From a virus: 29,829 nt of DNA. The stretch lies in the IMG/VR virus record IMGVR_UViG_3300021130_000013, positions 1 to 29,829 of that record; one strand, given 5' to 3'. Of the stretch, positions 5,625 to 14,546 are shown in pieces (the first letter of the stretch is position 1; the number at the start of each line of letters is the position of its first letter). The translations under genes were made by a program, and so were the position numbers. The notes beneath the pieces are model-generated. The model searched no databases. It had not been told where the DNA came from and saw only the letters and a list, made by a program, of their open reading frames with translations.

Positions 5625-5849
5625 TTATCCTTCCAGCAGTTCAATTACGCGACCGGCCTCTAAGGTCAAATGCTCATTGGCATAGACGCGCATATCCCAT
5701 TCTTGGCGGATACTCTTGTGAAGTTCCCCTGAAAGCTGTGCAACAGCGTTTGCCTGGGCAACTGTTACGCGACCTTCTAATACACCTTCCATGGTTGCCA
5801 AAAGAGCCCCTCTAAGGTCGGCCGCGTTTACGATTACTCTCTTACTCAT
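5625..5849 (-). CDS. Small helical hypothetical protein (74 aa)
   Basis: The start is the ATG at 5849, with GGAG nine bases upstream and the stop of the preceding gene overlapping as TGATG; a GTG one codon earlier is less likely. The sequence (AADLRGALLATMEGVLEGRVTVAQANAVAQLSGELHKSIRQEW) resembles small phage helical proteins in nin-like regions with no known function. No transmembrane part. It is coupled to the DUF1653 gene upstream. Confidence 0.65.
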   Translation of the reverse strand: MSKRVIVNAADLRGALLATMEGVLEGRVTVAQANAVAQLSGELHKSIRQEWDMRVYANEHLTLEAGRVIELLEG

Positions 5850-6046
5850 CACACCAACTCCCTAAACTTATCCCACCACTCAGACGCAGGGCGCACCCAG
5901 ACGTTATCCATTGATCCGCGTTCCCGGTAAACGATCACAACCTCGCCAGTTGCTTCCATCTTGGCAATCTCAAGAACCTGATAGACCTTCCCGCTGTGGT
6001 GTCGATACAAGGCATCGGGTTGGGGGAGGATTTTTGTTTCACTCAT
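5849..6046 (-). CDS. DUF1653-family small protein
   Basis: A 65-residue protein that matches the DUF1653 pattern: YRHHSGKVYQVLEIAKMEAT, then VVIVYRE and WVRPASEWWDKF near the end. These short beta-rich domains occur alone in bacteria and phages; no reaction is known. The start overlaps the stop of the gene before it (ATGA). Confidence 0.8.
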   Translation of the reverse strand: MSETKILPQPDALYRHHSGKVYQVLEIAKMEATGEVVIVYRERGSMDNVWVRPASEWWDKFRELV

Positions 6047-8197: not shown

Positions 8198-8509
8198 CTA
8201 GACGGCGTCCTCAATCCAAACAATCTTTGACCTTGTCGGATCCGACTTACGATCTTGGTAAATCCGCTCTTTCAACAGGTATCCTTCAAGATCCCAGATC
8301 TTTTCCAGCGCGTTCTCGTAAGCAATCTCTTCGCCTGTTTTGCGATCAAAAACCGCAGGATCGATGCAGGCAGAAGAAGACGTCACAACAAAGCCGTTGA
8401 TCATGGTGATCGCGCAGATCGTCGTGGTGGTGTCCGGGATGATCGTATAACGGACCTTGTCGATCCGGGACTCAATGCGCTCCCGAGTGATTTTTATTCC
8501 GATACCCAT
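8198..8509 (-). CDS. N4 gp49 / Sf6 gene 66 family protein
   Basis: A 103-residue protein. The hallmark is the stretch ICAITMINGFVVTSSSACID, then AVFDRKTGEEIAYENALEKI and WDLEGYLLKERIY, matching the gp49/Sf6 66 family (NGF.V...SAC...F....G...A..NA...IW.LEGYLL). The family is common in phages; its biochemical role is not established. The ATG at 8509 lies two bases after the previous stop. The gene ends in TAG, after which the frame stays open for 48 more codons. Confidence 0.85.
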   Translation of the reverse strand: MGIGIKITRERIESRIDKVRYTIIPDTTTTICAITMINGFVVTSSSACIDPAVFDRKTGEEIAYENALEKIWDLEGYLLKERIYQDRKSDPTRSKIVWIEDAV

Positions 8510-8511
8510 GT

Positions 8512-9006
8512 TCACGGAACGATCTCCCAATCGTCTTCGAGGATGTCGGACTGGGATGCGAGCCAAGGGACGACTTCGTCATTGACGGTTTTCATAGCGA
8601 GGTAGGCTCGGTAGGGAACCATGTCGCCAAATACGCTTCTGGCTGCATCCGTCTGCGCTGGATATGAATTAGCGGGAACGTAGTAGATGAACATGCCCTT
8701 GCCATTCCATCCGGCCCGGGCAACCTTCTCGCCAGCCTTTAGGGCTTCGATGGCCGCGCCAAACGTCATGCCGCTAATCTCGCGGTAGGCGCGTTCGAAT
8801 ACCTCACTGGGCGACCAACTGACGTAACCGTCAAAGGCGTCGGTGTTTGTTTTCCCGCCATCGACGTACACAACAAGAAACCCCTTGTCGGATCCGTCTT
8901 CGTCTTCAGGAAGTTCCCAGCCCCTGAAAATGTTGTATTCCAAGCGGGTCATCGGCTTTGCGTTGATTCGCTTTGTGCCGATGTATTGCTTCATTTCTGG
9001 ATTCAC
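8512..9006 (-). CDS. Tad2-like (former DUF2829) domain protein with N-terminal phage domain; candidate anti-Thoeris protein
   Basis: A 164-residue protein. The C-terminal half, from about residue 79, is MTFGAAIEALKAGEKVARAG, WNGKGMFIYYVP, VPYRAYLAMKT and VPWLASQSDILEDDWEIV, the full DUF2829 pattern, now known as the Thoeris anti-defence 2 (Tad2) family. Characterised Tad2 proteins bind and sequester cyclic ADP-ribose signal molecules made by Thoeris and so block abortive defence. Residues 1-75 (MTRLEYNIFRGWELPEDEDG...YVSWSPSEVFERAYRE) are a separate domain often found alone or fused in phages. Start: GTG at 9006, because AGGAGA sits upstream at the right distance; an ATG four codons on lacks one. 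Binding of a nucleotide signal is inference from family. Confidence 0.85.
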   Translation of the reverse strand: MNPEMKQYIGTKRINAKPMTRLEYNIFRGWELPEDEDGSDKGFLVVYVDGGKTNTDAFDGYVSWSPSEVFERAYREISGMTFGAAIEALKAGEKVARAGWNGKGMFIYYVPANSYPAQTDAARSVFGDMVPYRAYLAMKTVNDEVVPWLASQSDILEDDWEIVP

Positions 9007-9033: not shown

Positions 9034-9234
9034 CTATACCGTGGGATCGGTAACAGCTTCGTAGATCCAATAACCCAGACTGTCCCAGGTTCCCTCGATC
9101 AGTCGCTCTCGATGAAGGTCAGCCATTTCCTTAGCAACCTCCCTGCTTGTCTTCCCAAGAATGAAAGCCATCTGAGCCGCCGATACTTGGCGACCAACAA
9201 TGTGCTTCAGGATCTGTTTGCGTAGCTCGGTCAT
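9034..9234 (-). CDS. Small winged-helix DNA-binding protein (66 aa)
   Basis: The sequence ILKHIVGRQVSAAQMAFILG followed by TSREVAKEMADLHRERLIEG and GYWIYEAV is a compact winged helix: three helices, then a beta hairpin. It may regulate phage genes or replace a larger regulator. The ATG overlaps the stop of the upstream endonuclease gene (ATGA). Confidence 0.7.
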   Translation of the reverse strand: MTELRKQILKHIVGRQVSAAQMAFILGKTSREVAKEMADLHRERLIEGTWDSLGYWIYEAVTDPTV

Positions 9235-9728
9235 GCTGCTTCCTCTAGGAGGCGATCTATTGATGCAAACTGGTGGTGCTTCTTTTTTGCTTCGACATAA
9301 GCGGCTCTGGCTTCAGCTTCAGTATCAAAATTACCAAGAAACATTTGACGACCATTAACCCGTATAGATGAAAAAAACCGGCCAGATTTCAACCTATAGG
9401 CACCTTTTCTTGTTTTAGCTATGTTCTGAGCATTCTGGTATTGCTCGCATTCCCGAAGGTTGGCGATCCTGTTGTCAGTCCTCACTCCGTTAATGTGATC
9501 GATAAACAAAGGCCATTTCCCATGAACATAAAAGTAAGCAAGCCTATGCTGCATGTACCTTTTTCCAAGGATGTAAATTCGAAGGTATCCAAATTTGTGA
9601 GTAGAATCGCAAGTCGCGCCAATCTTTCTATTGCTGGTCCCAATAATCTTCTTTCTTGTAAAGACTCCAGTGTCTGGATCGTAAGAAAGTAGATCCAGAA
9701 GTTGTTTGTGCGTAATTGCATTGCTCAT
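9231..9728 (-). CDS. HNH homing endonuclease with AP2-type DNA-binding domain
   Basis: A 165-residue protein. The N-terminal part (about 5-60) is a DNA-contacting domain found in front of HNH_3 nucleases (LLSYDPDTGVFTRKK). The HNH core is MQHRLAYFYVHGKWPLFIDH, INGVRTDNRIANLREC, with the paired His and the catalytic-type Asn. An AP2-like domain follows (GAYRLKSGRFFSSIRVNGRQ, FLGNFDTEAEARAAY). Such enzymes cut a phage target site and spread by repair. It has four-base overlaps with ninB upstream and with the winged-helix gene downstream, so it inserted, or was kept, without disturbing operon coupling. Confidence 0.9.
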   Translation of the reverse strand: MSNAITHKQLLDLLSYDPDTGVFTRKKIIGTSNRKIGATCDSTHKFGYLRIYILGKRYMQHRLAYFYVHGKWPLFIDHINGVRTDNRIANLRECEQYQNAQNIAKTRKGAYRLKSGRFFSSIRVNGRQMFLGNFDTEAEARAAYVEAKKKHHQFASIDRLLEEAA

Positions 9729-13393: not shown

Positions 13394-13444
13394 GGAGACA
13401 AATATACACAACGTATATTCTTGGTGTCAACATGGCGTATATCA
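13394..13444 (-). promoter_or_regulatory. Leftward early promoter pL with repressor operators
   Basis: On the minus strand: -35 TTGACA (13425-13430), an 18-base spacer and -10 TATATT (13401-13406), predicted start near 13394. Operator 1 is a perfect inverted repeat AATATAC-ACAAC-GTATATT (13401-13419) lying over the -10. A weaker second site, TCAAC-ATGGC-GTATA (13427-13441), is centred 24 bases away over the -35. Bound repressor would block polymerase. The roughly 105-base leader contains a hairpin TGAATG-GCTT-CATTCA (about 13325-13340). Confidence 0.85.
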
Positions 13445-13498: not shown

Positions 13499-14224
13499 TC
13501 ATTCGTCCATCCAGCTCCCAACCACGACCCCGCAAATGTGCATATCAGGAGTCATCTCGATCGTTGGGTATTGTGGATTCAAGGGTTTGAGATAACGCTT
13601 TCCAGCGTCTTCCGCGTAAACCTTGAAAGTGGCTGTTTCCTCGTCATGAATTCGAGCAACCACTCTGCAACCGTTCGTGATGGCCTTATCTGGATCGACA
13701 AAAATGAAACAGCCTTCCGGATAGCTTTTTTGGTTTGGGTAAGGCGAGATCATGGAATCGCCTTGCACCCGTAAAGCGTAAGTTTGGGGGCCAAATTTTC
13801 TGAGAGCCGGGATCCAGTCGTCGGCATCGCCAACATGGAATAGGTCTGGAGAAGAACAAAAGACCCCAGCCCGTACCCAGCTGATAACCGGGATCATTCC
13901 GTTCAGCGATGGTCCTGGCAGAGTGTTTTTATCGAGCATCGCGGACCGCAAGAACACCAAATTATCCGTATGCTCTTCCGTATTTAGATCGATTCTGTCG
14001 GACATGGGGCCTTGTCCGGTCTCGATCCACAAGGGACGGCATCCAATAATGGCTGATGCTTTCAGGCGCCCTTCTTTTGAAACGCCCCTAGCCCTCCAAT
14101 TATTTAGAACCTGGTCTGCAATTTCGTAACCATTACGAGTAAGGCCGCGCGCTACTTCGGCTTGCGATCCCCATCCACGCATAGTTTTTGCGGCGAGCAA
14201 AAGTCTTTTGTAAGTTTCGTCCAT
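13499..14224 (-). CDS. CI-type repressor with LexA/S24 autocleavage domain
   Basis: A 241-residue protein from the ATG at 14224 (MDETYKRLLLAAKTMRGWGS); the reading frame extends upstream but through the pR operators. Residues 1-75 are a helix-turn-helix domain (GSQAEVARGLTRNGYEIADQ, VLNNWRARG). The C-terminal S24 peptidase domain has a predicted cleavage site Ala119-Gly120 (WVRAGVF), nucleophile Ser157 in GDSM and the general base Lys201 (ATFKVY). The repressor should therefore cut itself when RecA is activated, which makes the prophage SOS-inducible. It would bind TATAC-N5-GTATA operators on both sides of its gene. An inverted repeat CCACA-CCA-TGTGG (14245-14257) lies in its upstream region. 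Confidence 0.92.
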   Translation of the reverse strand: MDETYKRLLLAAKTMRGWGSQAEVARGLTRNGYEIADQVLNNWRARGVSKEGRLKASAIIGCRPLWIETGQGPMSDRIDLNTEEHTDNLVFLRSAMLDKNTLPGPSLNGMIPVISWVRAGVFCSSPDLFHVGDADDWIPALRKFGPQTYALRVQGDSMISPYPNQKSYPEGCFIFVDPDKAITNGCRVVARIHDEETATFKVYAEDAGKRYLKPLNPQYPTIEMTPDMHICGVVVGSWMDE

Positions 14225-14258
14225 TTCAAAATTCTGACCCAGATCCACACCATGTGGA

Positions 14259-14303
14259 TATACATGCTTGCGCCTGTCGGTATACATGACGTATATTCGC
14301 TTC
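14259..14303 (+). promoter_or_regulatory. Rightward promoter pR with repressor operator
   Basis: A -35-like TTGCGC (14268-14273), 18-base spacer and -10 TATATT (14292-14297) predict a start at about 14303-14305. The operator TATAC-ATGAC-GTATA (14281-14295) overlaps the -10 exactly as in pL. A half-site TATAC at 14259-14263 may be a weak second operator. The start would coincide with the Cro ATG at 14304. Confidence 0.75.
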
Positions 14304-14546
14304 ATGAACGGAATATCCAAAGCAATCGACCATGTTGGAAGCCAAGCCGAGCTGGCTCGACGCATGTCGCTCATTTCTGGGGAAAAGATCACCCCCCAAA
14401 TGATTCACAACTGGAGGCTTCGCGACAACGTGCCACCTGACTTTGCGCCTTTTATCGAGCAGATCACAGAGGGCCTTGTGTTGGCTGATGAGGTTTGCCC
14501 GAAAGTTCCGTGGCATGTCATTCGCGGCAATAGTGAGGCCGCGTAG
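14304..14546 (+). CDS. Cro-like / YdaS-type HTH regulator
   Basis: An 80-residue protein (MNGISKAIDHVGSQAELARR ... ITPQMIHNWRLRDNVPPDFA). The helix-turn-helix at about 10-40 is followed by a short helical tail, as in Cro and YdaS-type phage regulators. It is divergent from the repressor gene. Upstream in-frame starts at 14268 (TTG) and 14286 (ATG) lie inside the promoter and operator, and there is no ribosome site before 14304. With the transcription start predicted at the same place, a leaderless mRNA is likely. It should compete with the repressor for the shared operators. Confidence 0.85.
   Translation: MNGISKAIDHVGSQAELARRMSLISGEKITPQMIHNWRLRDNVPPDFAPFIEQITEGLVLADEVCPKVPWHVIRGNSEAA

Follow-up and report, generated by a model that had tools for sequence, protein, structure and literature searches.

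A Tad2-family phage protein with a conserved N-terminal accessory domain and an adjacent Acb4-family gene: a candidate two-sponge cassette

The question raised by the virus fragment analysed here (IMG/VR record IMGVR_UViG_3300021130_000013, 29,829 nucleotides, hereafter the window) is which host alarm signal would be captured by a 164-aa protein that joins a Tad2 domain to an additional N-terminal domain, and what the additional domain contributes. This 29.8-kb fragment encodes an integrase, an excisionase, NinB, a RecE-like exonuclease, a Bet-like annealing protein and a CI-type repressor, and the features discussed below are located as follows:

8198..8509, minus strand: Phage_gp49_66 (PF13876), the Acb4 anti-CBASS sponge family, about 103 aa (Pfam)
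8512..9006, minus strand: gene of the two-domain N-module/Tad2 protein, 164 aa, GTG start
8518..8769, minus strand: Tad2 domain (residues 80-163), ModTad2-like (profile, structure, tree)
8773..8994, minus strand: N-module (residues 5-78), an accessory domain without a Pfam entry (fold and searches)
13401..13430, minus strand: pL-like promoter of the left operon, TTGACA-18-TATATT, 11 of 12 consensus bases
13499..14392, minus strand: CI-type repressor (phrog_4), the putative regulator of the left operon (PHROG match)

The pL-like promoter is situated below the repressor gene, and all genes from it to xis and int read leftward, including those of the Bet-like protein, the RecE-like protein, NinB, an HNH protein and the 164-aa protein, which confirms the early-left operon (promoter at 13430-13401, minus strand) to which the earlier note, giving no strand, had assigned the gene. 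This position suggests that the gene, whose GTG start is preceded by AGGAG at 8 nt, is probably expressed early. Comparison with two relatives gave dN/dS values of 0.12-0.17, and therefore both halves of the protein are under purifying selection. PADLOC returned no defence match among the neighbouring genes tested. The closest terminase match was 45% identical, and among genome contigs there were only distant relatives. Just upstream, at 9231-9728 on the minus strand, we observed an HNH endonuclease whose C-terminal part is weakly AP2-like, likely a homing endonuclease inserted in the operon, and at 5849-6046 on the minus strand the same operon carries a DUF1653 gene, which is also present near the N-module/Acb4 gene of crAssphage.

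When the 164-aa protein was searched against Pfam, PF11195 (Tad2-like) covered residues 80-163 (97.5 bits, E 6.5e-28, profile positions 1-73 of 73, curated cut-off 25 bits), in agreement with the earlier note, which had read a Tad2-family domain from about residue 79 and proposed such a profile search; the RyR domain (PF02026) was not matched. Residues 1-78 had no Pfam or NCBIfam match, and the N-module folded alone in AlphaFold2 at pLDDT 93.0 (90.8 for the whole protein, modelled as a monomer). This confident stand-alone fold supports a real, separate domain. The two-domain layout itself is not unusual: PHROG 872, annotated only as 'unknown function', has the same architecture and spans both halves (residues 4-163, E 1e-64), and therefore phage proteins of this combined type are already established and the layout is common. 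Indeed, 393 of 50,697 phage records matched the protein, 91 of them at 80% coverage or more, and gp49 of coliphage N4 is built in the same way. Among the IMG/VR relatives, divergence in one half is largely independent of divergence in the other (pairwise-identity correlation 0.29), with mean pairwise identities of 61% for the N-module and 46% for the Tad2 part in a sample partly selected on the N-module.

Every solved Tad2 structure stood at the top of the match list of the modelled Tad2 domain (Z 10.5-12.8), while the next unrelated structure reached Z 5.0. The best solved match was ModTad2 from a Myroides odoratus prophage in complex with hisADPR (PDB 9eib; also 8v3e), with Z 12.8 and 55% identity over 87 residues. 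The sequence alignment of the two is gapless over 86 residues, and both have the ligand-region signature YYVP..Y..QT..FG..V.Y..YLA, although ModTad2, unlike the 164-aa protein, is a single domain of 88 aa that lacks the N-module. All residues that are invariant in the relatives are kept (F82, A85, G92, R97, W100-N101-G102, D154, D159). The ligand region is 25 residues long, as in ModTad2 and SPO1 Tad2, versus 42 in AcrIIA7, so that the domain lacks the long b2-b5 insert (named after the flanking strands) that a previous study tied to cyclic-dinucleotide-binding Tad2 proteins such as SptTad2 and HgmTad2 (PMC12043709). The ligands solved with these longer chains are cGG for SptTad2 and 1',2'-cADPR for HgmTad2/AcrIIA7, with AcrIIA7 also solved with cGG. 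FastTree grouped the 164-aa protein and ModTad2 in one clade (SH 0.97) with SPO1 Tad2 and AcrIIA7 outside; in an IQ-TREE run based on few columns, none of the well-supported sets included the Tad2 domain of the 164-aa protein.

Previous work reported that MoTad2 binds His-ADPR, the signal of type II Thoeris, and that SPO1 Tad2 binds gcADPR (PMC13299392). With ModTad2 as the closest solved relative and the cyclic-dinucleotide insert absent, a His-ADPR-type signal appears the likelier ligand, by similarity to ModTad2, and the cyclic ADP-ribose ligand expected in the earlier note shifts from gcADPR to a His-ADPR-like signal. A classical gcADPR or 2'-3'cADPR sponge of the SPO1 or HgmTad2 type, for which the resemblance to the His-ADPR binder would be superficial, has in its favour that the fold also matches SPO1, Spt and Hgm Tad2 (Z 11-12) and that identity to HgmTad2, crystallised with 1',2'-cADPR, is 49%; we think it improbable, since ModTad2 is closest by both sequence and structure with no indels, the long AcrIIA7/HgmTad2 insert is missing, and FastTree places the domain away from SPO1 Tad2 and AcrIIA7. 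The reading as an anti-CRISPR protein (AcrIIA7) stems from several phage records that label homologues 'anti-CRISPR protein' and from the Tad2 fold of AcrIIA7. That protein has itself been solved with 1',2'-cADPR and cGG, and therefore the label may reflect nothing more than homology; moreover, the Tad2 domain studied here is closer to ModTad2, and we give the anti-CRISPR reading hardly any weight.

The gene at 8198-8509 starts 2 nt past the stop codon of the Tad2 gene in the same orientation, and its product matched PF13876 with 92.1 bits (E 3.1e-26, cut-off 27 bits). A published study assigns Acb4 to PF13876 and reports that 3'3'-cGAMP was bound by each of the 8 members tested (PMC11722364). 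Family profiles matched the structure of SPO1 Acb4 (PDB 9e4w, a single domain of 96 aa) with E 1.3e-7 and 2.3e-9, the latter from a profile that includes the 8198-8509 protein, whereas the protein as a single sequence reached E 0.47 only. By alignment, F48 and F62 among the cGAMP-contact positions of SPO1 Acb4 are kept, while E49, Y57, I66 and T70 differ.

Taken with its neighbour, we consider it probable that the early sponge and the Acb4-family protein form a two-sponge cassette, in which the N-module would be an accessory domain that does not choose the ligand. We predict that the 164-aa protein is an early-expressed sponge for an alarm molecule by which bacteria trigger anti-virus suicide: its C-terminal domain would assemble into a Tad2-type oligomer, which in this family is a homotetramer whose ligand pockets lie between the protomers, and sequester an ADP-ribose-based signal from TIR proteins, most likely of the His-ADPR type (type II Thoeris) as ModTad2 does, and the host effector would stay off. 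The 8198-8509 product, as a member of the Acb4 family, would soak up the cyclic dinucleotides of CBASS, and the gene pair may thus blunt Thoeris-like and CBASS signalling together. The same arrangement exists in Escherichia phage N4, where the N-module/Tad2 gene lies directly beside a PF13876 gene (gp48-gp49; YP_950526, YP_950527), although the gene order is opposite, the Tad2 part has diverged, and the setting is an N4-like phage and not the left operon of a temperate phage. Since coliphage N4, a laboratory phage, carries the same gene pair, the idea is directly testable.

The association of these domains extends well beyond this pair. In 58 pairs an Acb4-family gene was the direct neighbour of an N-Tad2 gene on the same strand; in 4 the two genes were near each other, in 0 far apart and in 1 on opposite strands, and the gene order in the adjacent pairs was 30 to 28 (counts include repeated contigs). 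Among 80 Acb4-family loci (454 kb), Tad2 was detected at 3 and RyR at 6, all adjacent or fused, whereas 80 Bet loci (459 kb) scanned as a control (NinB, as an alternative control, gave 3 loci only) contained no N-module, Tad2, Acb4-family or RyR domain. As the Acb4-family loci had been collected starting from genes next to Tad2, a choice that favours a link, the size of the effect is uncertain while its direction is not. Single chains were also found, with confirmation by Pfam: the distinct ORFs comprised 169 N-Tad2, 21 N-crAss001_48, 13 N alone, 10 N-Acb4, 6 N-RyR, 3 Acb4-RyR, 2 N-Acb4-Tad2 and 1 Acb4-Tad2. Fusions of the N-module to PF13876 occur in crAssphage KP06_gp41, cr3_1 and inbricus, and fusions to RyR (PF02026) in Pectobacterium phages phiA41, CB1, CB3, CB4 and Nepra, Yersinia phage TG1 and Escherichia phage 4HA13; chains that join PF13876 to RyR are encoded by Vibrio phage 1.151.O, Salmonella phage Maynard and locus L216, and one that joins it to Tad2 by a Campylobacterota genome contig (L264:2683-3279). 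The order N-module, PF13876, Tad2 in one chain occurs at three loci (L295, L296, L390). Phage RyR-domain proteins (RyDEP) are an anti-Thoeris family that resembles the 164-aa protein in that some members carry the N-module and differs in its signal-binding domain. RyR proteins were reported to cleave or sponge 2'/3'cADPR, and a Pectobacterium phage RyR homologue, which may or may not be the N-fused one, defeats Thoeris (PMC13232231, 2026).

The N-module has the secondary structure E14-18 H21-28 E42-47 E61-66 H67-73, and neither sequence nor fold searches found a solved or characterised homologue or a convincing fold match. It does not appear to be a degenerate second Tad2, as only one SPO1 Tad2 chain was matched by the module alone (Foldseek E 3.3), nor a chromodomain-like fold, where the best Z of 2.8 is not meaningful; DNA binding is not favoured because the module is acidic (mean net charge -3.2). 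The earlier note had suggested that the extra domain could change the ligand range. We found that N-fused Tad2 domains are scattered among plain ones in the Tad2 tree (15 changes in total, at least 5 of them required by well-supported branches), and that the N-fused ones come from many clades with ligand regions of 12-50 residues. The N-module is therefore unlikely to set the ligand range, because it is joined to Tad2 domains of many clades and also to Acb4-family and RyR domains that bind other signals.

The N-module would be a conserved accessory domain on several sponge families, acting most likely in assembly, avidity or docking on a common partner, and the broader proposal that it is a shared assembly or docking platform for three otherwise unrelated families (Tad2, Acb4 and RyDEP), on which phages swap sponge heads, stands in our estimate a little short of an even chance. 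It may be merely promiscuous, since it also joins crAss001_48 (21 ORFs). Such a generic domain, serving solubility or oligomerisation and unconnected with defence, its sponge partners reflecting how common sponges are, is a somewhat less probable reading than the shared platform; it would fit the fusions to crAss001_48, the related forms in PGDYG-like and MazG-type proteins and the polyphyly of N-fused Tad2, whereas the partner is a Tad2, Acb4-family or RyR domain in about 190 of the 211 distinct N-module ORFs for which one was identified (in a sampling that started largely from N-Tad2) and the control Bet loci had none of these. The N-module might instead be an anti-defence unit in its own right against a second host target, with Tad2 as a separate activity on the same chain. 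Stand-alone proteins of 70-75 aa exist (loci L170, L171, L258, L260), the module is more strongly conserved than the Tad2 part in the partly N-selected sample, and its partners are mostly anti-defence domains; the searches yielded no solved or characterised homologue to set beside these, and we regard a separate activity as unlikely, more so than the generic domain. A second anti-defence function had indeed been raised in the earlier note, and this part of the idea persists, most plausibly in the adjacent Acb4-family gene, which forms a single chain with Tad2 in some relatives, and not in the extra domain where the note had placed it.

Tad2, Acb4 and RyDEP are already known, and N-Tad2 has been catalogued as a sequence family with no function assigned, so the 8512-9006 gene alone is one more Tad2 and the interest lies in its neighbourhood and relatives. 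In the literature, of which our coverage was incomplete, we found no paper that names the N-module or notes that three sponge families share it, and no report of Acb4-Tad2 or Acb4-RyR fusions. The gene pairs, two-head fusions and common accessory domain suggest a modular use of sponges by phages, in which those for different alarm signals are interchangeable and can be combined. If this is true, it would explain how one phage blunts Thoeris-type and CBASS defences together, and it would offer a handle on the 'additional extensions' that, in the available part of the Acb4 study, are left unexplained in several homologues (PMC11722364). Further, the N-module would be a search key for new counter-defence (sponge) families, and the first candidate would be crAss001_48 (PF21825), its most frequent partner without an assigned function.

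Several relatives of the N-module were also observed in other contexts. Enterobacter phage SABI (L258:1992-2204) has a bare N-module where Pectobacterium phage phiA41 has N-RyR, which constitutes a natural head-less version, and Klebsiella phage LASTA (L262:1842-2717) has two tandem N-module-like or PGDYG-like domains followed by a crAss001_48 tail. Two further N-terminal modules that resemble the N-module, of the SFSPKQAF type and the YRKKPV/PGDYG type, are present on Tad2 (L043:4613-5360, L075:4713-5261) and also match PHROGs of MazG-type pyrophosphatases. At another locus (L053:5013-6070), an N-module/crAss001_48 gene is directly followed by a fusion of Tad2 to WDGH (PF25311), another accessory domain. 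In addition, an ORF with a weak match to Lar (restriction alleviation), scoring below the cut-off, lies upstream of N-module-Tad2 (L035:757-1605), a possible triple fusion that would bring anti-restriction and anti-Thoeris parts together.
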